A stretch of DNA of 64,000 bases from Armatimonadota bacterium. Its GTDB lineage: Bacteria; Armatimonadota; UBA5829; DSUL01. The stretch covers positions 2,682,162 to 2,746,161 of the forward strand of contig AP024674.1 of the NCBI GenBank assembly GCA_025998755.1, in the 5' to 3' direction. Each line of letters begins with the position of its first letter. Position 1 is the stretch's first letter. Position numbers and translations under genes: made by a program. Under the pieces are notes generated by a model that did not search any database, was not told the DNA's origin, and saw only the letters and a program-made list of their open reading frames with translations. Shown piece by piece: positions 1,891 to 43,992 of this stretch.

Positions 1891-2256
1891 GGCTGAACCT
1901 CCCGCGGACCTCTCCTCCAGAGCGCGGCGCGCTTACAGATGACGCACTCATCTTCAGTATACCAGATGAAAGGGCGCGGCAAGGGAAACCGGTTACACAA
2001 AAAAAGGGGGGGCGCCATTCGTGGATGTGGCGAATATCTCTTGACAACGGCCGTACAGCGTGTTAGTGTACAGTTGCGCTTGTGAGCGAGTTTGCGCGAA
2101 GGTGGCCCGCGAAAGACCCCCTTCTTCCGGTCTCTTGGCAGCTCCCCCTGCTGCGTAACGGGAGACAGTCCCTGACAGACCGCCCGTGCCGCGGCAGTGG
2201 CGGGCAGGAAACATCCGGCAGCAAAGCTGCCGCTTCTGTTGAAAGGAGGGAAGGCC
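1891..2256. other. divergent intergenic region with a 5' leader of about 180 nt
   Basis: This 366-bp gap separates the leftward amidase gene from the rightward large secreted gene. A TTGACA box at 2041-2046 lies 17 bp before a poor -10 (TAGTGT, 2064-2069). The presumed leader holds two hairpins: CCGCC..GGCGG around a TGCCGCGGCA core near 2190-2210, and GGCAGC-aaa-GCTGCC at about 2217-2231. The Shine-Dalgarno GAAAGGAGGG (2241-2250) follows. I do not recognise a known riboswitch class. Confidence 0.4.
2041..2069 (+). promoter_or_regulatory. possible sigma-70 promoter for the large secreted protein
   Basis: TTGACA (2041-2046) is a perfect -35 and is 17 bp from TAGTGT (2064-2069), which matches only three of six -10 positions. 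Position and direction suit the gene starting at 2257. Confidence 0.4.
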
Positions 2257-5200
2257 ATGCATACCCTCATTGCTGGCCTGCAGAGATGGGCTGCCGTCCC
2301 AGGTAGTCCGGGCAGAGGGAGGCGGCTGGCCACGGTCGCGATCGTATGCGCCGTTGTGGGCCTCATTGTGGCCGCGCCCGCGTCTGCTCTTACCGTCATT
2401 TCGCATTCCGCCAACACCGATGTCATCGTGGGGGTTCCCTACAACTCGCTGGAGTTCGAGAATCCCCTGACAGGTCCAGAGATGGTGCAGGGCTACGACC
2501 TGATCCAGTGGCGGGATGCCGATTACTCCCTGGCGGAATGGCCGCCGTCCTTTGATGACTGGACGGTCAATGACCCGTTCCGGATAGACGGGGACGCCAA
2601 CGAGGTTTGGTTGCGACAGAGAGGGCACTCGGCTTCCACCGCAACCACCATCCCAGGTTCCATCGTTTCCATCCACCTGGTTGGAGACGACAATGACGGA
2701 GTGGCTCAGGTCATGGTGGACGGCGAGGAAGTGGCCCGGCTGGATATGCACTCGCCGCAGCATCCTGAGACCGCGTGCGTCATAGTGAAGGGGCTTGCGC
2801 ATAGCCTGCACACCATCGAGGTGCACGATCTCGGCCCCGGTGCAGCCGGAGCAGACAATGATGACGTGGCTGTCTTGGGCGCGGGAGTGCTTCGAAAAGG
2901 CGTGGCGGTCAAGTGGGACCAGTCGCCGGAGGACAGGGAACCCCCGCAGGCGTGGCTCGGCTGGAACGAACTCTCAGTGGATGGAGGACAGCAGATCGCC
3001 GCGGATGACTGGCGCTGCGACACCGAGGAGCCGGTCACGGACATCCACTGGTGGGGTTCGTTCCTGAACTGGACGAGACCCGAACCGCCTCCGGACATGC
3101 CCAGCCACTTCCACATCGCCATCTGGACGGATGTGCCCGCCGGGCAAGATGAGCCCTGGAGCCATCCGGGACAGGTGATCTGGGAGACCGACTGCTATGA
3201 GTTCAGCATCACTCCGGAGGGCTTCGACTTCGACCCGCGTGACGAGTCGTTCGAGACCTGCTTCCGGTTCGACCAGACGTTGAACGAGCAGGAGTGGTTC
3301 CGCCAGACCTCTCAGCAGGGCATCTACTGGATCAGCATCGCCGCCGTGTATCCGGATGGCATGGTGGTGGAGCATCCTTGGGGGTGGAAGACGCGTCCAC
3401 GCGTTCCCGAATCGCTTGCGCCGGATGACGCGGTCCGCATCTTCATTCCAACTGCCCCCCGGCTGGGTGCCCAGTTCGAGAAGGGCGAGCCCATCTTCTG
3501 GCCCTCGCCTGAGCAGAGCTGGGATCTGGCCTTCGAGCTGACCACAGGAGGGTCTGCAACAAACAAGATTCTCCAGCCGCCGGATCCACGACTGCCCGGC
3601 GTCCACGCCCACGACTGGAGCGGATTCATGATGCGCGAGTGGAGCACCCTCGCGGACGACTGGATCTGCCTGGGTGGGGCCATCCTCAGCTTCGAGTGGT
3701 GGGGCAACTACGAGATGGACGAACTGGGACGCGAGAGGCGCGGGGAGGGAATCCGCAGCTTCCATCTCGGCATTCACCGGAACATGTGGGGGCTGCCGTT
3801 CATGCAGCCCGGTCCCGAGATGTACGGGTTGGATATCCCGTTCTCGATGGCCAACGAGACTTTCACGGGGTTGTTCAATCCGGAAGGGAGCCCCATCTAC
3901 CACTATGAGGTCGTGCTGCCGCAGCTGTTCCTTCAGGAGATCGAAGAGTGGTACTGGCTGAGCCTGACAGCGAACTCCAACAGCTTGCTCGCTCCGGCCT
4001 ACTGGAGGTGGCAGGAGCACTCCCGGCAGCCATATCCTCTGTTTGCCTCCGCGGTGCAGTCTCTCTCGGGCGGCCCGTGGCAGCAGATCAAGTGGGGATC
4101 GGATCCTGTCCGGTATACCGACCTGGCGTTCGCCGTGAACTCAGGCGTCAGCACTGGACAGATCATTAAATGGTCGCAGCCACCGGTGCCGGTGGTTCCG
4201 CCGGGACCATTCTTCAACGGCTGGAACGAGCGGTCCATCCGGGGCTCAGATCAGATCGTGGCGGATGACTGGGTCTGCACCGGCGAGCGACCGGTCACTG
4301 ACATCCACTGGTGGGGATCGTTCATAGGCTGGAGCAGGCGCGACCCGCCGAAGATGCCGGATGCCTTCGAGATCGCCATCTGGACCGACGTGCCGGTGGG
4401 ACCGGGGCAGCCCTGGAGCCACCCGGGGCGGGTCATCCATCGCATCATCTGCGAGGACTTCCGCTGGACCTTCGCAGGATGGGACGTGGATCCGCGCAAC
4501 CCGGCCGCAGCTCCTGAGGCGTGCTTCCTGTTCGAGCAGGATCTGAAACGGGAGGACTGGTTCTGGCAGAGGCCCGGAACCAACATCTACTGGATCAGCA
4601 TCTCGGCCATGTATCGCGACGGCCAGGAGCCGGAGTATCCGTGGGGATGGAAACTGCGGCCACGGCGGGAGTCGCCGGATGATGCGGTGCGGATCTTCAA
4701 GCCCACCATCATTCTGCCCGAGATCCCCTTCCAGGCCGGGGAGCCCATCTTCTGGCCCACCGAAAGGGAGAGCTGGGATGCGGCGTTCCGCCTGACCTCC
4801 GTGCTGCCGGGCGATCTGACGTTCGACATCTTCAAGGTGGTGCGCGACCACTTCTGGTGGCCGCGGCCCGGGAACCCGCCCAATAGGATGATGAGCCTGA
4901 AGGTCTCCGCATCCGCCACGGAAGCGGTCTTCTGGGACACCATCACGCTGCAGGCGGGAGGTACAGGAAACGACGCGGTAGACATCCTGTCCGTGGATGT
5001 CTACCTGGACGTCAACGCCAATGGCCTGTTGGACGCTGCAGACGTGCTGCTCGGAAGTGGAGCCTATCCGGTGGACAACGGGGCGGTGGCTATCGCGTTC
5101 GCGGCTCCGCCGCTGATTCCGGCCGGCGGGTCCGTGGCGGCGCTGATCGTCTACCAGATGAACCCCGCCATCGGCGGACCGGGTGGGCGGACCTACTGGT

Positions 5201-6033
5201 TCAGCGTCGTCGCAGCCTCCGGTACAGGCCAGATGACGGGAGCGGGCGTCAACATCAACGGGCTGCCGCTCACCAGCGCCCGGAAGATCGCCGTCCGAAG
5301 GCCCGTCCCGATCGGTCACGCCAAGAAGAATGTCGCTCCCGGAGGAGAGGTCTTCCTGGAGGGCAAGGTCGTAACGGCGGACTTCCGGAACAGGTTCAGC
5401 ATCTTCTACTTGGAGGAGCCGGACCGCTCCGCGGGCATCGGTGTGGTGCCTCCGCCTGAGCTGTTGAGCTTCCCGCTCAGCATCGGAGACGTCGTGCACG
5501 TTCTGGGGACGACGGGCTACTACGAGGCGGAGCAGACGGAGCTCATCATCATGGCGAAGGAACTCCTGGTGGAGCATCCCGGGGCGGCGCCCATCGTTGC
5601 GCTCAAGTTGAACAACCGCGACACGGGCGGCGGGGTCTTCGGCTTCCAGCCAGCCGTGGTGGATGATGCCCTGCCCGGCCCAGGCAATCCGCGGGTGCTG
5701 TCGCAGAGGCTGAACAACGTGGGAAGCCTGATCGAGACGTGGGGCACGGTGACCGGTCAGAACCCGGGACTCGGAGTGTTCTGGCTCGATGACGGCAGCA
5801 ACCTGCGGGATGGCAACCGGCTGCCTACGGGAGCGCCGGCGATCGGGGTGGCGGTGCTGATGCCCGGCGGTGCGGGTGCTCCGCTGCCTCCGGTCGGCAG
5901 CTTCCTGCGGGTCACCGGCATCATGTTCGCCATTCCCGCCGGGACTCCCGGGGACACGTATCCGATGCGCCTGCTGGTGCCGAGGACCACTTCGGACATC
6001 ATCGAGGTCGTCGGTCCGGGCATTCCGAGATAG
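2257..6033 (+). CDS. large secreted protein with three tandem WWG-type domains and a C-terminal OB-like module
   Basis: The protein has 1258 residues. The ATG at 2257 was chosen because GAAAGGAGGG sits 6 bp upstream and it begins a signal peptide (positive N-region, then a VAIVCAVVGLIVAAPASA core). Three related domains follow at about residues 217-432, 437-629 and 636-848. The first and third share DDW-x-C, PVTDIHWWGSF, IAIWTDVP, YWISI, PWGWK and DDAVRIF; the middle copy is diverged but keeps DDWIC and WWG. These resemble the uncharacterised DUF7901-like repeat seen in secreted planctomycete and armatimonad proteins (family naming tentative). A beta-rich segment (about 880-1000) contains LDVNANGLLDAADVLLGS. 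From about 1020 to the end are two OB-like domains also found in the secreted protein at 48216-49844. No catalytic motif is visible; an extracellular binding role is a guess. A strong terminator follows at 6057-6088. Confidence 0.85.
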   Translation: MHTLIAGLQRWAAVPGSPGRGRRLATVAIVCAVVGLIVAAPASALTVISHSANTDVIVGVPYNSLEFENPLTGPEMVQGYDLIQWRDADYSLAEWPPSFDDWTVNDPFRIDGDANEVWLRQRGHSASTATTIPGSIVSIHLVGDDNDGVAQVMVDGEEVARLDMHSPQHPETACVIVKGLAHSLHTIEVHDLGPGAAGADNDDVAVLGAGVLRKGVAVKWDQSPEDREPPQAWLGWNELSVDGGQQIAADDWRCDTEEPVTDIHWWGSFLNWTRPEPPPDMPSHFHIAIWTDVPAGQDEPWSHPGQVIWETDCYEFSITPEGFDFDPRDESFETCFRFDQTLNEQEWFRQTSQQGIYWISIAAVYPDGMVVEHPWGWKTRPRVPESLAPDDAVRIFIPTAPRLGAQFEKGEPIFWPSPEQSWDLAFELTTGGSATNKILQPPDPRLPGVHAHDWSGFMMREWSTLADDWICLGGAILSFEWWGNYEMDELGRERRGEGIRSFHLGIHRNMWGLPFMQPGPEMYGLDIPFSMANETFTGLFNPEGSPIYHYEVVLPQLFLQEIEEWYWLSLTANSNSLLAPAYWRWQEHSRQPYPLFASAVQSLSGGPWQQIKWGSDPVRYTDLAFAVNSGVSTGQIIKWSQPPVPVVPPGPFFNGWNERSIRGSDQIVADDWVCTGERPVTDIHWWGSFIGWSRRDPPKMPDAFEIAIWTDVPVGPGQPWSHPGRVIHRIICEDFRWTFAGWDVDPRNPAAAPEACFLFEQDLKREDWFWQRPGTNIYWISISAMYRDGQEPEYPWGWKLRPRRESPDDAVRIFKPTIILPEIPFQAGEPIFWPTERESWDAAFRLTSVLPGDLTFDIFKVVRDHFWWPRPGNPPNRMMSLKVSASATEAVFWDTITLQAGGTGNDAVDILSVDVYLDVNANGLLDAADVLLGSGAYPVDNGAVAIAFAAPPLIPAGGSVAALIVYQMNPAIGGPGGRTYWFSVVAASGTGQMTGAGVNINGLPLTSARKIAVRRPVPIGHAKKNVAPGGEVFLEGKVVTADFRNRFSIFYLEEPDRSAGIGVVPPPELLSFPLSIGDVVHVLGTTGYYEAEQTELIIMAKELLVEHPGAAPIVALKLNNRDTGGGVFGFQPAVVDDALPGPGNPRVLSQRLNNVGSLIETWGTVTGQNPGLGVFWLDDGSNLRDGNRLPTGAPAIGVAVLMPGGAGAPLPPVGSFLRVTGIMFAIPAGTPGDTYPMRLLVPRTTSDIIEVVGPGIPR

Positions 6034-18813: not shown

Positions 18814-19581
18814 CTACGCTGTCAGCATTTCCCGCAGCTTTTTGAGCGCCTTGTTCTGAAGCCGCGACACGTGCATCTGGCTGATGTTCAGACGTTTGGC
18901 CACCTCCGTCTGCGACATATCGAGGAAATAGCGGTAGAGAAGCACTGCGCGCTCACGCTCGCCCAGGTTCTGCATGGCTCGCGTGAGGTCGTCATATAGC
19001 TCCAGTTTCTCCAGCAGCTCGTCCTGCGCCCCCAGCGAGTCGGACGGCTTCATCCCCGCCGCATCCCCTTCGCTGGACGAGGGAGCATCCACGGAGACCG
19101 GTGAATACGCGCTGGCCACGGCCAGCCCGTCGAGAACGTCCTGCGGTGGCACCTGCAGACGTTCCGCGATCTCCTCGATAGTGGGTTCGCGTCCCAGTTC
19201 GTGCGAAAGCTCCTCAGAGACCTTGGAGACCTGCTGGTTCAGCTCCTGAAGGCGCCGCGGGACCTTCAGACCCCACGCCCTGTCCCGGAAATAACGGCGG
19301 ATCTCCCCCACAATGGTGGGTGTGGCGAAGGTGCAGAACTTCGAGCCGCGAGAGGGGTCGTAGCGGTCAACGGCCTTGATCAGGCCGATATTGCCCACGG
19401 CGATCAGATCTTCCAGAGGCTCGCCGCGGTTGGCGAACTTGCTGGCCAGGTAGCGCACCAGCCTCTGGTTAGAGTCTATGAGCTGCTTCCTGAGGCGCGG
19501 GTCCCGTGTCCTGGCGAATTCCCTGAAAAGCTCCTCGGAATCGTCGCGGTCGGCGTTGCCCCGGCGGCTACCCCGCGGCAT
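18814..19581 (-). CDS. sigB: RNA polymerase sigma factor, SigB/SigF/SigG group
   Basis: About 255 residues from ATG 19581 (a GTG at 19596 is possible). Region 2 is excellent: NQRLVRYLASKF, DLIAVGNIGLIKAVDRYDPS, then RGSKFCTFATPTIVGEIRRYFRD, quoted here as KFCTFATPTIVGEIRRYF, the hallmark of the SigB/F/G group. Region 3 includes LGREPTIEEIAERLQ and region 4 includes LGERERAVLLYRYFLDMSQTEVAKRLNISQ (helix-turn-helix; key part SQTEVAKRLNIS). The start overlaps the end of the rsbW-like gene by 14 bp, so the two are translationally coupled. It would direct RNA polymerase to general-stress promoters; a matching promoter precedes hsp20 at 26008-26033. Confidence 0.95.
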   Translation of the reverse strand: MPRGSRRGNADRDDSEELFREFARTRDPRLRKQLIDSNQRLVRYLASKFANRGEPLEDLIAVGNIGLIKAVDRYDPSRGSKFCTFATPTIVGEIRRYFRDRAWGLKVPRRLQELNQQVSKVSEELSHELGREPTIEEIAERLQVPPQDVLDGLAVASAYSPVSVDAPSSSEGDAAGMKPSDSLGAQDELLEKLELYDDLTRAMQNLGERERAVLLYRYFLDMSQTEVAKRLNISQMHVSRLQNKALKKLREMLTA

Positions 19582-37898: not shown

Positions 37899-38942
37899 CT
37901 GGACACAGAGCTGTTTGACCGGATCTATGGCTGTCTGCTGGGGGTGGCGATCGGCGACGCGCTGGGTCAGCCGCGCAGGGGGCTGGACTGGCGGGGAGTG
38001 CAGGAGCGCTTCGGAGGCGCTCTGGAGCTGGCTCCCTGGCCGCTGGATGCCCAGCCCGTGGCACAACAGCCGGCTGGACGAATCGGCGAGCTGGCGCAGC
38101 TGGTGATGCGCCTTTCGCTGCGGGCGGGAGCATCCGGCATCCGGCCGCGCACCGGGCTGCTGGTGGACGAGCTTCTGGGGATGGAGACCCTCTCCAGCCT
38201 GCCCGCGCAGGCCGCCGTCGCGCGCATCCGCGCCGGAATAGAGCCCACACGGTCCGCCGTTCCTGAGCTGGCCGGGCCCGAGGCGCTGTATGTGGCCGTG
38301 CCCGTCGGCATTGCCAATGCGGGCGATCCCGAGACAGCCTTCCTGGCGACGCGGGCGATCGCCGGCACCATCCTTCTCGGCGCGTCCCTTGATGCCGGTC
38401 AGACGTTCGCCGCAGGGGTCTCCGCGGCGCTCATCCCGGGAGCCACTCCGTCTTCTATTCTGGAAGTGATGCTGGACCTTGCCCCCCCCGGTGTCTCGCG
38501 GGAACTGGTGCCGGCTGCACGTTTCGCGGCCGCGCATCTGGGCGATCCCACCGACAATCTGATGCCAGCCATCCACGACCGCTTCTCCTCGCGGCGCTCC
38601 GCGGACGTGCACGGCCCGGCGGTGGAGTCCCTGGTGGTGGCAGCGATGCTGGTATACCTCAGCGACGGCTTGCCCGGGCAGTCTCTGCGGGCTGCGGCAT
38701 CCTACGGCGGCTGGAGTCATGCCACCACGGCTGCAGCCGGAGCTCTGGCGGGATGCCTGTCCGGGGCGACATCCATGCCGCAGGAGTTGACGCAGACCGT
38801 TCTTGCCGCCAATCCGGACGTGGACATCGTCCAGGCAGCCCGGCAACTTTGCAGGCTGATCCGCCTGGAGTGTGAGAGGCAGAGGAAACGGCTGGATCAG
38901 ATTGAGCAGCTGGCCGGGGCGGATGCGGCTCAAAGGCGCTGA
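37899..38942 (+). CDS. ADP-ribosylglycohydrolase-like protein with degenerate metal sites and a non-AUG start
   Basis: About 347 residues. The family's N-terminal signature DRIYGCLLGVAIGDALGQP is intact, but it lies upstream of the first GTG (37944). In-frame sequence opens only after a stop at 37872-37874 and has no ATG, GTG or TTG before the signature, so a CTG at 37899 with AGAGAGGG 7 bp upstream is the best start. The two metal-binding motifs of active enzymes are lost: the usual T-D-D-T stretch reads WPLDAQPVAQ, and the usual G-G-D-T-D-T reads YGGWSHATTAAAGALAGC. The helical fold appears kept. It is probably a non-catalytic ADP-ribose-binding or scaffold protein partnered with the two genes before it. 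Confidence 0.68.
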   Translation: MDTELFDRIYGCLLGVAIGDALGQPRRGLDWRGVQERFGGALELAPWPLDAQPVAQQPAGRIGELAQLVMRLSLRAGASGIRPRTGLLVDELLGMETLSSLPAQAAVARIRAGIEPTRSAVPELAGPEALYVAVPVGIANAGDPETAFLATRAIAGTILLGASLDAGQTFAAGVSAALIPGATPSSILEVMLDLAPPGVSRELVPAARFAAAHLGDPTDNLMPAIHDRFSSRRSADVHGPAVESLVVAAMLVYLSDGLPGQSLRAAASYGGWSHATTAAAGALAGCLSGATSMPQELTQTVLAANPDVDIVQAARQLCRLIRLECERQRKRLDQIEQLAGADAAQRR

Positions 38943-39032
38943 GGCTTTGCGGGCGGAACCCTCCTGCCACCCTGTAGTTCCCGGCGCCGAGGCCGTCTGA
39001 CCCGGATCCTCGACCTCTTATTCACCTGTACA

Positions 39033-39096
39033 CGAAAAAGCCCGGCCGGTGGCCCGGCCGGGCAGTTACGAGAAAGGAGGGTGGGAAGCTTTCGTT
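39033..39096 (-). ncRNA. small RNA unit 1 (anti-Shine-Dalgarno type)
   Basis: The 24-nt block is at 39093-39070. A 10-bp GCCCGGCCGG stem (39063-39054 with 39049-39040) with a 4-nt loop is followed by TTTTTCGTG. Predicted length is about 64 nt. It is the last unit; the rightward ADP-ribosylglycohydrolase-like gene ends about 90 bp further left. Confidence 0.75.
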
Positions 39097-39102
39097 TCTT
39101 CT

Positions 39103-39128
39103 GACGTCGGCCTCGTCTGTTTTGTTCC
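39103..39128 (-). promoter_or_regulatory. ECF-type promoter of small RNA unit 1
   Basis: Read leftward, GGAACA (39128-39123), 16 bp, CGTC (39106-39103). An A-rich segment (GTGTGAAAAAAGTTTACAG) lies upstream. Confidence 0.78.
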
Positions 39129-39230
39129 CGCTCTGTAAACTTTTTTCACACTATTTCTAATCCGAAGTCCGGACAGTTAGCGGTTGTGGAACGCCCTGCG
39201 ACAGCTCCGCCCCCGGCCGGTGTCTGAGAT

Positions 39231-39304
39231 GCCATACAACAACCGACCCCCGGCCTCCAAGGGCCGGGGGTCGGAAGAGAAAGGAGGGTGGGAAGCTTTC
39301 TATC
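39231..39304 (-). ncRNA. small RNA unit 2 (anti-Shine-Dalgarno type)
   Basis: The 24-nt block is at 39300-39277. A 12-bp stem (39273-39262 with 39255-39244) encloses a 6-nt loop. Its tail, GTTGTTGTATGG, is the weakest of the four. Predicted length is about 74 nt. Confidence 0.72.
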
Positions 39305-39310
39305 TTCTAG

Positions 39311-39336
39311 GACGGATCCACCGGGCGAAAGGTTCC
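39311..39336 (-). promoter_or_regulatory. ECF-type promoter of small RNA unit 2
   Basis: Read leftward, GGAACC (39336-39331), 16 bp, CGTC (39314-39311), with an A/T-rich stretch upstream. Confidence 0.8.
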
Positions 39337-39500
39337 GCCAGCGAAACAAATTCTTCAACAATTCTTTGCCCCGGCCGACCCGGGAGACACTCCTTTGATC
39401 TCCGTGTCTTGACCTGCCCGCCGCGGTTTCAGCTTTACAATGGCAGGTCACTGCGCCGGGAGCGACCGCGTCACCAGCCGCTCTGAGCACGATGGGCCGC

Positions 39501-39569
39501 AAAACAACCAACCCCCGGCTCTGCTGAGCCGGGGGCTGGAAGAGAAAGGAGGGTGGGAAGCTTTCTACC
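39501..39569 (-). ncRNA. small RNA unit 3 (anti-Shine-Dalgarno type)
   Basis: The 24-nt block is at 39565-39542. A 10-bp stem (39535-39526 with 39521-39512; GCCGGGGG-type sequence unlike unit 4) with a 4-nt loop ends in TGGTTGTTTT. Predicted length is about 69 nt. Confidence 0.75.
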
Positions 39570-39575
39570 TACTTT

Positions 39576-39601
39576 GACGTAAACCATTGCAGAAAGGTTC
39601 C
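39576..39601 (-). promoter_or_regulatory. ECF-type promoter of small RNA unit 3
   Basis: Read leftward, GGAACC (39601-39596), 16 bp, CGTC (39579-39576), preceded by an A-rich region (GAAAAAAGATGAAAAAAACG). Confidence 0.8.
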
Positions 39602-39702
39602 GCCCGGAAAACGTTTTTTTCATCTTTTTTCCCGTCGCCCCTTATGCCGTCGAGCAGGAATGCGGGCGGGACCGGTGCGGGTGTCTTCTGGCGGGACAAG
39701 CC

Positions 39703-39768
39703 AAAGAAAATCCCCGGGCGGTGACCCGCCCGGGGTTGAGAGAGAAAGGAGGGTGGGAAGCTTTCATC
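39703..39768 (-). ncRNA. small RNA unit 4 (anti-Shine-Dalgarno type)
   Basis: The transcript should start 6-8 nt after the -10, just before the conserved 24-nt block that begins GAAAGCTTCCC and ends CCTCCTTTCTC. Six nucleotides later a 10-bp stem (39735-39726 with 39721-39712) closes a 4-nt loop and runs into ATTTTCTTTGG. The predicted RNA is about 66 nt: an unpaired pyrimidine-rich 5' half and a terminator. Confidence 0.75.
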
Positions 39769-39774
39769 TGCTTT

Positions 39775-39800
39775 GACGATAGCCTGGCAAAAAAGGTTCC
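39775..39800 (-). promoter_or_regulatory. ECF-type promoter of small RNA unit 4
   Basis: Read leftward, GGAACC (39800-39795), 16 bp, CGTC (39778-39775). An A/T-rich stretch (TTTATAAAAAAAGCG) precedes the -35 like an UP element. It lies 17 bp after the stop of the GxGYxYP-like gene. Confidence 0.8.
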
Positions 39801-39817
39801 GCATTAACACGCTTTTT

Positions 39818-42613
39818 TTATAAAGATTTTGTTCCAGCCGGCCGGACCTCCACCTCCGACTCCCACCAGGGACACCCTGCTTCCACGAATGGTCCCCCTC
39901 CGTCCGCCATCGAAAGATGAAAAACGTACCGGCCACGCTGCGCCGGAGCCATGATGCGGACGCGAAGCACAATCCCCTCTCCCGGACGCACATCGTGTGG
40001 AAGCTCCAGCCGCTCAGCGCGTGTCCAGTCTACACGGTCTGCCAGGCCGCAGAGAAGATGAACTTCTCCCGCTCTCCACGTGTCCCACCCGTCGTTGCGG
40101 ATGCCCACCACGACCTCCCGCTGCCGGCCGGCCTCGAATCCTGCGGAAGCGTCGTCGAACGTGAACGTGCACCGGCGTTCGTTCTTGCCGCCCAGGTGAT
40201 GCCGAAGAAGATAATAGAACGTCCAGGGATCCAGGAACGCATGCGGCGCGTTCGGGCTGGAAGCCTGCGCCGCATCCATTAGAGAGCGCACGAACGAGGG
40301 GCCCAGCAGGATGAGCCGGAAACTCAGGAACTGAAGCCCCTCCCGCCTGAAACGCTCCATGCAGGCGATATTGGCCTCGTTGTCCGGGCACAGATCGTGC
40401 ATCTGCCACGCCACGGGGGTGTTTCCCCGAAGGTGGCCCTCCCCATCCATCCAGGCCCGCTGGGTGGCCATCCCGTCAGGGCTGAACTCGGCCGTCATCT
40501 CCTCGGACTCCGGCGTAAGTTTCCCTGCGTGCCCGTTGATCAGGAATCCCGTGATCCGGAGGTTGTAGCGGCGGTACAACTCCCGGCAATGGTTCACCCA
40601 CGCCGCGCGCGCCGACGGCAGTCCTGATACCGGCCGCGGCTCCAGGAGGACGGTAGGATTTACGTATCCCGCGCCGCTGTCTCCCGCCGTGAAAAAGTCC
40701 GCTTCCGAGGCCGAGTTCCACGCGTAATGGAGCGCAGCCGGGTTGCGGGCGCTCAGGTTGGGGTTGAACGCCCAGCCCATCGGCACACTGCCCCGTTCAG
40801 GATCCGCCCACAGTTCGGGGATCTTGCGGGTGAGCCAGGCAGCAGAGTCGAAGTCCCCGATATAGAACAGGGTGAAACCAAGAGGCGCCAGGCTCCCATC
40901 CGCGGCCATATAACCCTGCTCCATCAGGCGGCGGGGTGTGGGAGGCGGGTTCTGCACATAGCGGTCCGGCAGAGGCATCTGGCTCCAGAGGGATGCGTTG
41001 GCCATAGCCGAAAGGCTGTGGGCGTCAGCGTCCAGATAGCCGTTGTAGGCGGAGAGCACCCGCACCAGCTCCCATTCCGAAGCAACCGGCTCATGGCGGC
41101 CCGGGGGGACGGCGTGGTCCGTATATTTGAATGCCCACGGAGTGAAGCCGGCCACGTGCATCATGCGGCCGCCGCTGCGTTCCCACGCCGATCGCATCAG
41201 CTTCCGGAACGTCTCCAGATCGGCACCCACCGGCTGATTGGGGTCATCCTGCGGAGCTTCATCGCCCCAGTTGGACAGGTCGAACAGAAACCCGCGTCCC
41301 GCCACGATCCAGTCATGGTTCGTCAGACAGTGCTCCCACCAGGGCATTGTGCCGGAACGCTGCAGCCAGAAGGCGTCCAGCCAGTAGCCCAGCCTGCACG
41401 GATCCGCCCGTCCCGAATCCAGATAGCGCTCCTTTGCCCAGAGATAAGCATCACATTTGGCGCTGCCAGACCCGCCCTCCCGCAGCGGAAAGAGCCCCGT
41501 GAGCTCCAGTTTCACTGGAAAAAGCTTCCGCAGCCGCGCTCCCAGTGAGCCTTCCGGCTCGCTTCCCCGCACGGGCAGAAGATCCTCCACACCGGCGGCG
41601 GTAGTGGCCACGTTGGAGGTGGCCGGAACAGCCGGGTCCCAGACCACCAGCCCCTTCACTTCCCCCGCGAATCGCGTGGCCACCTGCAAAAGCGCGTCTT
41701 CCGGCGTTCCGTCCCCTCCGTATGTTACCAGCGAGACCTTCTCCAGCCAGTTGCCCGGCCGGCGCAGGTAATCCAGCCAGAAATCGTCCGCTTCGAACAC
41801 GCGCAACATCAGGCGTGGCCCCTTGCGGTTGACGATCCCCTGGAGACAGGCGGCGGCGTGGAACAGCTCGTACATCCGGCTGGCCAGAGCGGGGTCGCCG
41901 GCCACATCCCACGATGCCGCGTCCCGCAGATCCAGGACCACAAGCTCGCCCTGCGCCTGCGGAGCTGTCCACACATAGAACTCCGCTGACGATTCCGCAG
42001 TCCGGCCCTCCGCTGCGGCTTTCACAGTGACAGTGTGAAGCCCTTCGCGGAGGCGTATCCGCACGGACTGCCGGCCCGGCTCGCAGCCGCCGGCGCCCCG
42101 AAGCCGCGAACCATCGAGGGTGATGACGACCTCATCCAGAATCCCGGCGTGTTCCGTCTCCCAGACCAGCTCCACATCCGCTCCCGTCACCCGTCCAGCG
42201 TGAGCGGGGCGGACGATGCGGACCAGGGGAGTCTGCGGTGTCACGAACTCCGACCAGCCGGACCAGTCACCCCATCGCCCGCCGGAGCGGACTCTTGCCC
42301 GGGCCCTGAGGGCCGCCGCCGGTGGGAGGGAAGGAAGCTGCACGGTGTAGCTGCGGGAGTCCACCTGGCCCGAAGACCAGAGCAGGCCATCCGGCGAATG
42401 CACTTCGGCCTCGAAGGCGTCGTGAGGCTCCGCAATGAACGCAAGGGCCGGCCGCAGCGTGTCCACGGGGCCGGCGGGAAAAGTGATCCTTGTTTCCAAA
42501 CTCTTTACCTCCTCCGGAGGGTAAGCCGCTGCCTGCGCGGCCACAGCCAGAAAGGCAGCGGCTGCCACAGCCCTTGCGGCTACAGGCCATGTCGGCATTC
42601 TCAATGCTCTCAT
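39818..42613 (-). CDS. secreted GxGYxYP-like putative glycoside hydrolase
   Basis: About 931 residues from ATG 42613, which overlaps the tilS stop as ATGA. A signal peptide (RAVAAAAFLAVAAQAAA) is followed by two Ig-like beta domains (about 30-215). Next comes a segment with DLRDAASWDVAGDPALASRM and LFHAAACLQGIVNRKGPRLML, matching the LQGlvNr pattern of the GxGYxYP family. A large central domain contains WWEHCLTNHDWIVAGRGFLFDLSNWGDE (key part LTNHDWIVAGRGFLFDLSNW), FTLFYIGDFDSAAWL, and GTPVAWQMHDLCPDNEA-like sequence (NTPVAWQMHDLCPDNEANI). The C-terminus is again beta-rich. It is probably an extracellular glycan-active enzyme; activity is unproven for the family. The sRNA array begins just downstream. 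Confidence 0.72.
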   Translation of the reverse strand: MRALRMPTWPVAARAVAAAAFLAVAAQAAAYPPEEVKSLETRITFPAGPVDTLRPALAFIAEPHDAFEAEVHSPDGLLWSSGQVDSRSYTVQLPSLPPAAALRARARVRSGGRWGDWSGWSEFVTPQTPLVRIVRPAHAGRVTGADVELVWETEHAGILDEVVITLDGSRLRGAGGCEPGRQSVRIRLREGLHTVTVKAAAEGRTAESSAEFYVWTAPQAQGELVVLDLRDAASWDVAGDPALASRMYELFHAAACLQGIVNRKGPRLMLRVFEADDFWLDYLRRPGNWLEKVSLVTYGGDGTPEDALLQVATRFAGEVKGLVVWDPAVPATSNVATTAAGVEDLLPVRGSEPEGSLGARLRKLFPVKLELTGLFPLREGGSGSAKCDAYLWAKERYLDSGRADPCRLGYWLDAFWLQRSGTMPWWEHCLTNHDWIVAGRGFLFDLSNWGDEAPQDDPNQPVGADLETFRKLMRSAWERSGGRMMHVAGFTPWAFKYTDHAVPPGRHEPVASEWELVRVLSAYNGYLDADAHSLSAMANASLWSQMPLPDRYVQNPPPTPRRLMEQGYMAADGSLAPLGFTLFYIGDFDSAAWLTRKIPELWADPERGSVPMGWAFNPNLSARNPAALHYAWNSASEADFFTAGDSGAGYVNPTVLLEPRPVSGLPSARAAWVNHCRELYRRYNLRITGFLINGHAGKLTPESEEMTAEFSPDGMATQRAWMDGEGHLRGNTPVAWQMHDLCPDNEANIACMERFRREGLQFLSFRLILLGPSFVRSLMDAAQASSPNAPHAFLDPWTFYYLLRHHLGGKNERRCTFTFDDASAGFEAGRQREVVVGIRNDGWDTWRAGEVHLLCGLADRVDWTRAERLELPHDVRPGEGIVLRVRIMAPAQRGRYVFHLSMADGGGPFVEAGCPWWESEVEVRPAGTKSL

Positions 42614-43992
42614 GGGCGGCGCGCCCACGAGGGAAGAGCGCCGCCGGGCGGGCAAACGGCCACCAGGGTATCCGCCCCCCCATATGCCACCTGTTCCGAG
42701 ACAGCCACGCCGGGAATCCAGAGAATCTCCTCCCCCGCGCAGATGAGTGGGACGCGCTTCCGGTCTTCCCGCGGCACGTGCCGGTCTGTAAAGATATCCT
42801 GAAGCTTCTTCGCCGCGCCCAGCCCCTTCGGACGCATCCGGTCGCCCGGCCGCCAGTTTCTCACGTGGAGCATTCTGTTCCCTGCCTGGAAGGTCAAGCG
42901 CAAAGGCTCGTCGCCGGCGTGATCCGGCTCTGACACGTGGATGCGCCAGCCTCCTGGCGTGGTTACCTCTCCCGCCTTGGGAAGCTCCAGCTCGAACGGC
43001 TCCGGCTCCGCAACGGGACGGGAACGGCTCAGACGGAGCCACCGGGCATCCGACGAGACGCGCACACCCAGCCCGATGTCCTCTGCTGGCGACGGCTGCC
43101 GGGCCGCCGACAGGACGCGCTGGCACATCCGGAAGGTCACGTCGCGTGGTCCGCCGGTCAGACGCTCCAGCGCCAGCCGCGCGGCGCGCCGGGCCAGAGC
43201 CGGATGAGCATCTCGAAGGGCGGCCGCATCCAGAAACAGCTCCCCGGTGCCAGTGCTGGATTGAACGAGAAGGTTCAGGAGCTCCTGCGCCTGCGCGTCC
43301 AGAAAGGCATTTTCCTCGGCCGCCATCTCGGCCAGCCGGAGGAGGCTTTCGCGTACGGAAGGGGATACCTCGCGCTCTAACAGAGGCAGCACGCTGTGAC
43401 GGATGCGGTTTCGCAGAAAGCGTGCATTCCGGTTGCTGGCATCCTCGCGCCACCCTTGACCGAGTTGCTCAAGATGCAGGCGCACCGCCTCGCGAGAGCG
43501 TCCCAGAAACGGCCGGACGAACTCGCCCGACCTCCAGGCGATTCCCTGCAGTCCCCGCAGTCCCGCGCCGCGCAGGAGATTCATGAGAACGGTCTCCGCG
43601 CGGTCGTCCGCGGTATGGCCCGTGGCGATGACGCGGCACCCCGCGTCTTTTGCTGCTTGCCGGAGAAACGCAAGCCGTTCATTCCTGGCCGCCGCCTCCG
43701 CCGAGCCCGGACCCAGCGAACGGGATCGTCCCGTTATAAGACGGACACCTAGAGCGTCGCAGAGATCCCGGACAAAGTCTGCGTCCTCTCCCGATTCGGC
43801 ACGCATCGCATGGTCGAGGTGAGCCGCGAAGACCTCCCATCGTCCGGCTGGCGCAAGGTCCAGAAGCGTCCGCAGCAGGCACACGCTATCAGCCCCGCCG
43901 GACACGGCCGCAAGTACCCGGTCCCCCGGAGCGATCAGCTCCCGGACCCGGATGTCTTCCAGCACCAGTTCAAGGAAGCCCGGCCCATCCAT
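42610..43992 (-). CDS. tilS: tRNA(Ile)-lysidine synthase TilS
   Basis: The 460-residue enzyme converts cytidine 34 of the minor tRNA-Ile(CAU) to lysidine using ATP and lysine, which lets it read AUA. The PP-loop is RVLAAVSGGADSVCLL; AHLDHAMRAESGEDADFV, TGHTADDRAETVLMNLLRG, GIAWRSGEFVRPFLGRSREAV and DASNRNARFLRNRIRHSVLP are standard TilS blocks. The C-terminal third has the substrate-recognition domain (LHVRNWRPGDRMRPKGLGAAKKLQDIF). I chose ATG 43992 because it gives the normal N-terminus; starts up to 44106 are open. It is translationally coupled to the GxGYxYP-like gene. Confidence 0.94.
   Translation of the reverse strand: MDGPGFLELVLEDIRVRELIAPGDRVLAAVSGGADSVCLLRTLLDLAPAGRWEVFAAHLDHAMRAESGEDADFVRDLCDALGVRLITGRSRSLGPGSAEAAARNERLAFLRQAAKDAGCRVIATGHTADDRAETVLMNLLRGAGLRGLQGIAWRSGEFVRPFLGRSREAVRLHLEQLGQGWREDASNRNARFLRNRIRHSVLPLLEREVSPSVRESLLRLAEMAAEENAFLDAQAQELLNLLVQSSTGTGELFLDAAALRDAHPALARRAARLALERLTGGPRDVTFRMCQRVLSAARQPSPAEDIGLGVRVSSDARWLRLSRSRPVAEPEPFELELPKAGEVTTPGGWRIHVSEPDHAGDEPLRLTFQAGNRMLHVRNWRPGDRMRPKGLGAAKKLQDIFTDRHVPREDRKRVPLICAGEEILWIPGVAVSEQVAYGGADTLVAVCPPGGALPSWARRP

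Follow-up and report, generated by a model that had tools for sequence, protein, structure and literature searches.

A stretch of 64,000 nt from an Armatimonadota genome (hereafter the window) carries, in the gap that separates a GxGYxYP glycoside-hydrolase gene from a convergent ADP-ribosylglycohydrolase gene, four copies of one 24-nt block, GAAAGCTTCCCACCCTCCTTTCTC. This raises the question of whether these are genes for small RNAs and, if so, what would switch them on and what they would act upon. The block occurs exactly four times in the window, always on the minus strand, and only 0.02 occurrences of its 19-nt core, allowing up to three mismatches, would be expected there by chance. A preliminary description of this DNA had proposed four minus-strand units, each with a promoter, block and hairpin, and all four were recovered with the following coordinates:

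39818–43453, minus strand: upstream neighbor, ORF of a putative GxGYxYP glycoside hydrolase (true start probably internal)
39775–39800, minus strand: unit 4, ECF-type promoter (-35 GGAAC at 39800–39796, -10 CGTC at 39778–39775)
39742–39765, minus strand: unit 4, conserved 24-nt 5' block
39702–39735, minus strand: unit 4, terminator hairpin (39735–39712) and T-rich tail
39576–39601, minus strand: unit 3, ECF-type promoter (39601–39597 and 39579–39576)
39542–39565, minus strand: unit 3, conserved 24-nt block
39501–39539, minus strand: unit 3, terminator hairpin (39539–39508) and T-rich tail
39311–39336, minus strand: unit 2, ECF-type promoter (39336–39332 and 39314–39311)
39277–39300, minus strand: unit 2, conserved 24-nt block
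39236–39274, minus strand: unit 2, terminator hairpin (39274–39243) and tail
39103–39128, minus strand: unit 1, ECF-type promoter (39128–39124 and 39106–39103)
39070–39093, minus strand: unit 1, conserved 24-nt block
39030–39063, minus strand: unit 1, terminator hairpin (39063–39040) and T-rich tail
37944–38942, plus strand: downstream convergent neighbor, ADP-ribosylglycohydrolase

All four promoters read GGAAC(C/A)-N16-CGTC, and the gap between the end of CGTC and the block is 9, 10, 10 and 9 nt from unit 4 to unit 1. Each block is followed by a hairpin that is unlike the others in sequence and ends in a T-rich tail, as had been described, with stems that we measured at 10–14 bp rather than the 10–12 bp first reported. 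A terminator scan recovered all four hairpins on the minus strand, with 6 sites in the region where 2.1 would be expected. Rfam gave no match in the window at the gathering threshold, and sub-threshold matches to P15 and STnc310, which lay on GC-rich stems and were mostly antisense, were judged to be chance.

The units in the window are half of those in the genome (3.29 Mb, one contig), which has eight copies at four loci: the four described above, a tandem pair at 1838798 and 1838973, and single copies at 2369110 and 1708257. The profile search that gave these eight also found six copies in the same genus and, in the family's two remaining genera, seven and three (the relatives in this family being metagenome-assembled genomes according to public records). 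The same search brought up homologues, likewise often tandem, in another three families of the class. A second profile detected copies in 17 of 28 genomes of one Armatimonadota class, with 1–8 per genome, and none in 263 other Armatimonadota genomes; profile searches also gave no recognizable copy in the f2 genomes. The search of relatives for the block followed by a hairpin, which the preliminary description had proposed, yielded in all 43 copies in 17 genomes, 23 from the window's family and 20 from other families. An 18-mer search of all genomes returned 15 stretches; eight are Armatimonadota copies, and the seven from other groups (L035, L037–L040, L043, L044) have no promoter and terminator and were discarded as chance. 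One isolated GCTTCCCACCCTCC in a related genome (L231, G001:C230:19498), lacking a clear promoter or terminator, is possibly a decayed copy or chance.

The array lies just downstream of the GxGYxYP gene in the window's genome and in two relatives, G001 and G002, where it adjoins the GxGYxYP and tilS genes in conserved synteny and has three and two units, respectively. The third unit of G001 (L032, 6601–6665) is a hybrid that joins the promoter of unit 2 of the window's genome to the terminator of its unit 1, suggesting that the array changes size, by gain or loss, through recombination at the identical block. Such a hybrid, and the fact that the copies are multiple and intergenic, would also suit a DNA-level repeat (the ends of a mobile element or a recombination site) instead of RNA genes. 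We regard this as very improbable, as every family keeps the promoter spacing, the position of the block and a hairpin that is fully paired though different in sequence. Outside the syntenic array the copies are spread over unrelated loci, and the flanking ORFs listed include no evident transposase. Plasmid and phage searches were also without a match, so an origin from a mobile element or plasmid was rejected. In genera g5 and g11 of family f3, a tandem pair was seen to adjoin the same ABC exporter genes, encoding an ATPase and a membrane protein of about 555 aa (L235, L236, L234 and L243, in G007, G005, G015 and G014).

GGAAC-N17-CGT ends 9–11 nt upstream of the block in 33 of the 43 copies. 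These include all 20 from outside the window's family, which retain both the promoter spacing and the hairpin; in them the promoter is typically GGAACA-N15-TCGTA and the block CAAACCTTCCCACCCTCTTTTCTC, and in their aligned profile the promoter, block and terminator alone stand out. The three elements occur together in 33 copies with unrelated flanks. A hairpin follows the C-rich block in every one of the 43 copies (-15 to -33 kcal/mol), mostly with a T-rich tail; its z-score against shuffled sequence is below -2 in 42, and there are 28 different stem starts. Hairpins were folded copy by copy, the terminator stems being too different to align. Across the class the invariant core of the block is UUCCCACCCUC, the exceptions being single C-to-T changes in two G002 copies, and predicted folding leaves this core unpaired with a mean probability of 0.94. 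The tail of the block is CCUCUUUUC in the three other families. A GAAAG/CUUUC hairpin within the block was considered as a defining structure and set aside, as it was found only in part of the window's family, is disrupted by GATAG and CATTC variants and is missing from the other families. The initial reading of the units as ECF-promoter-driven, separately terminated sRNAs is backed by the 33 recurrent copies and by the same promoter at a SigE-type gene (see below), and from this sequence evidence we consider it almost certain that the units form a real sRNA family.

Within the window's family, 10 of 23 copies have no ECF promoter. About seven of these have sigma70-like -10 boxes at the matching place (e.g., TATTAT, TATAAT and TACAAT), with TTGCNN 17–18 bp upstream in the window's genome, where the copies at 1838798, 1838973 and 2369110 (L008, L009) carry sigma70-like promoters instead of the ECF promoter; the others of the ten have no clearly assignable promoter. 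Judging by these promoters, one and the same RNA appears to be produced under two kinds of control, and the ten copies suggest that part of the family does not answer to the SigE-like sigma factor discussed next. As the block is kept where the promoter changes, selection appears to act on the RNA itself and not on an extended promoter.

It had also been proposed to look for an ECF sigma gene preceded by the same promoter. The sigma genes of the genome were listed and their upstream regions scanned, and one such gene was found, a SigE-like gene at 1929557; among the ECF genes of this genome it alone has GGAAC and CGT suitably spaced near its start (promoter at about C1:1929443, L055). The protein gave its best scores with SigE and SigW, and its best named match is actinobacterial SigE. 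Downstream in the same operon lie a zinc-finger anti-sigma factor and then an HtrA-type protease, both confirmed by their zinc-finger and trypsin-like protease domains, in the same order as sigE-rseA-htrA of mycobacteria. In each of the four genomes of the window's family GGAAC-N17/18-CGTA lies just upstream of the sigma orthologue, mostly with a spacer of 18 rather than 17, and the same promoter precedes 12 of 13 clear orthologues from other families, giving 16 of the 17 genomes examined (orthologue loci L143, L150, L153, L173–L185). The thirteenth orthologue (G019), at which the site is 706 nt upstream of the reference point and the locus ends at the contig end, was left uncounted.

The promoter consensus of actinobacterial SigE is GGAAC-N17-18-cGTT (PMC10012870). 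From the promoter shared by the orthologues, the match to SigE and this consensus, we infer that the SigE-like sigma drives the sRNA, and consider such control highly probable. The f2 genomes also have the sigma operon and its promoter; having no detectable RNA, they suggest an older regulon to which the RNA was added as an arm, or from which it was lost. Genome-wide, GGAAC-N17-CGTC could not serve to define this regulon, since it occurred at 63 sites against 38 in a reversed control, and as most of the sites examined were inside genes the pattern is uninformative without position. Two further observations were made on promoters and sigma factors. An aroE-like gene in two genera has GGAACAAAG...CGTC 3 nt ahead of its ATG (L097:1863, L106:2025); if this is a promoter, the mRNA would be leaderless. 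A sigma-70 region-2 match, in a SigB/SigF-like ORF, is present on the minus strand of the window at 19273–19482 (L051).

The block contains CCUCCUUUCU, which is identical to the anti-Shine-Dalgarno tail of the organism's own 16S rRNA (3' end GGATCACCTCCTTTCTAAGG), and so is predicted to be able to pair with Shine-Dalgarno (SD) sequences. Targets were analyzed by pattern searches and in a 1.26 Mb sample of stretches from the same genome with 931 predicted starts. In this sample the block preferred SD regions over coding sequence more strongly than 194 of 200 shuffled blocks, with 6 of 200 as good. This preference, together with CACCCUCCUUUCU in the block set against CACCUCCUUUCU in the 16S rRNA, would fit a general mimic of the 16S 3' end, which competes with ribosomes at many strong SDs and broadly lowers translation, that of secreted proteins included. 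However, mean pairing to start regions was no stronger than for shuffled C-rich blocks, and the CCUCUUUUC tail of the three other families weakens the mimicry. Genes for secreted proteins did show stronger predicted pairing than other genes, by a margin greater than that of 148 of 150 shuffled blocks. Since the 16S tail itself gave the same difference, we attribute this bias to stronger SDs at those genes and do not take it as evidence of a target enrichment among them. That the RNA blocks, as a 16S mimic, the strong SD sites of a whole class of mRNAs, notably those for exported proteins, and not just of one or two, is in our view improbable. If it did, a mimic made in bulk from several genes under a stress sigma would put a general brake on translation in response to envelope stress.

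The anti-SD reading of the preliminary description holds as far as the identity to the 16S 3' end and the preference for SD regions are concerned, and is weakened by the different tail in other families, by the class-wide core being UUCCCACCCUC and by the outcome of the target prediction that had been suggested alongside it: no conserved target emerged from the pattern searches. Exact wobble-tolerant complements of the core were no commoner than control patterns, and none of the sites checked had a complement of the core at a ribosome site common to several genomes. The one start-proximal candidate, at a malic enzyme gene in G011, was dropped, as it appears to lie inside the coding sequence. 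The one target named at the outset is a match within the window:

2241–2250, plus strand: 10-nt exact complement GAAAGGAGGG, the strong SD of a secreted DUF7901 protein (ORF 2257–6033)

The match is indeed present, 6 nt before the ATG, and is an unusually perfect SD, which makes it non-specific as evidence; by complementarity, the DUF7901 mRNA is a possible target. The best predicted pairing for a secreted protein, and the second best of 722 start regions scored, was at the start of a gene for a secreted subtilase of 1534 aa (C1:1602417; L258:2417), where GGAAAGGAG and TGGGAAGCTTT are both complementary to the block (-30 kcal/mol).

The best-conserved part of the block, UUCCCACCC, is almost without complement near start codons, with 0–1 exact 8- or 9-mer matches in the 931 start regions. 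An RNA that mainly binds a protein, as a sponge or ligand, would have this property if the invariant UUCCCACCCUC were a protein-recognition site and not an mRNA seed, and the failure to find a conserved complementary mRNA and the single identical block amid free variation elsewhere fit a binding site as well. We nevertheless think protein binding unlikely to be the main function, given that the neighboring CCUCCUUUC tail equals the 16S tail and matches SDs, with exact 9-mer matches at 10 of 931 starts and none internally. Nor do we know of any C-rich RNA-binding partner in this group of Armatimonadota.

An Hfq gene (PF17209, E about 1e-27) was found in 11 of the 12 genomes searched. In view of the predicted ability to pair with SDs, the preference for SD regions and the presence of Hfq, the most likely mechanism is that, under envelope stress, the RNA pairs with the help of Hfq to the G-rich ribosome sites of a limited number of mRNAs. 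Each unit would then be a complete gene for a trans-acting sRNA of about 64 nt, composed of an ECF-type promoter, an unpaired C-rich 24-nt 5' working segment and a Rho-independent terminator. The promoter would most likely be read by the SigE-like sigma of the sigma/zinc-finger anti-sigma/HtrA operon, which may control itself through the same sequence. Envelope stress would release the sigma, several copies would fire together, and a high dose of one RNA would result. The exposed UUCCCACCCUC core of this RNA and the anti-SD-like tail next to it could pair with G-rich ribosome-binding sites, probably with Hfq, and so reduce the translation of selected mRNAs, in the manner of the enterobacterial sigma-E sRNAs. 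We favor an ECF-driven, trans-acting sRNA that pairs at ribosome sites under envelope stress as the probable explanation of the locus as a whole; for repression by SD pairing taken by itself, we judge the chances to be even.

The closest known counterparts are MicA and RybB of enterobacteria, which are sigma-E-dependent sRNAs (PMC1804206). The predicted Armatimonadota RNA resembles them in being small and separately terminated, with promoters of an envelope-stress ECF type, a conserved 5' end open for pairing and an Hfq homologue in the genome. It differs in having no sequence or Rfam relation to them, in its 1–8 copies, often in tandem, and in its predicted driver, a sigma like actinobacterial SigE that is accompanied by a zinc-finger anti-sigma factor and HtrA. 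The upstream ECF promoter (33 of 43 copies), the terminator hairpin (43 of 43) and Hfq (11 of 12 genomes) correspond to what characterizes ECF-dependent sRNAs. The actinobacterial SigE regulon is similar in its promoter, GGAAC-N17/18-CGT(T) (PMC10012870), and in its sigma factor, the best named match of ours. LhrC1–5 of Listeria are multicopy, induced by envelope stress, and aim a single-stranded UCCC motif at ribosome sites (PMC4132741). The Armatimonadota RNA likewise is multicopy, has a single-stranded, UCCC-containing motif that may pair, and a predicted link to envelope stress; in contrast, LhrC depends on the two-component system LisRK and not on an ECF sigma, has three redundant motifs (PMC4132741), and shows no homology by Rfam search. 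The resemblance to LhrC, as to MicA and RybB, is one of working principle. Other UCCC-motif sRNAs are RsaE and FsrA. To our knowledge, no such multicopy sRNA has been described in the actinobacterial SigE regulon.

The preliminary comparison with CcsR1–4 holds for the tandem arrangement and the anti-SD-like motif and is otherwise loose, since CcsR1–4 are processed from the ccaF1 3' UTR (PMC8625941). The "anti-SD loop" RNAs of alphaproteobacteria, to which CcsR and the CCUCCUCCC RNAs belong, share with our units four tandem copies, a relation to stress and a C/U-rich anti-SD-like motif. However, each Armatimonadota unit comes with a promoter and a terminator of its own, and the gene upstream of the array in the window encodes a GxGYxYP protein and not CcaF1. 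Rhizobial RNAs of this group carry the CCUCCUCCC motif in several hairpin loops (PMC3927594), whereas the Armatimonadota motif is UUCCCACCCUC and lies in a mostly unpaired 5' segment. As motif, structural context and biogenesis all differ, membership in the group was rejected. On the sequence evidence, the predicted RNA represents a new family that is confined to one class and consists of ECF-driven, multicopy sRNAs of about 64 nt, of a kind that is itself already known.

Our literature searches found no sRNA described in Armatimonadota, so that this family, with its predicted sigma and with Hfq present, would give the phylum its first defined sRNA regulon. The hypothesis can be tested directly by means of the profile models and the conserved promoter. 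The family also offers a clear natural case of one RNA body under different promoters, apparently ECF-driven across the class and with sigma70-like versions in one family. More broadly, it suggests that the enterobacterial logic of an envelope-stress ECF sigma with a non-coding arm may operate in an unrelated phylum with a SigE/HtrA-type system.
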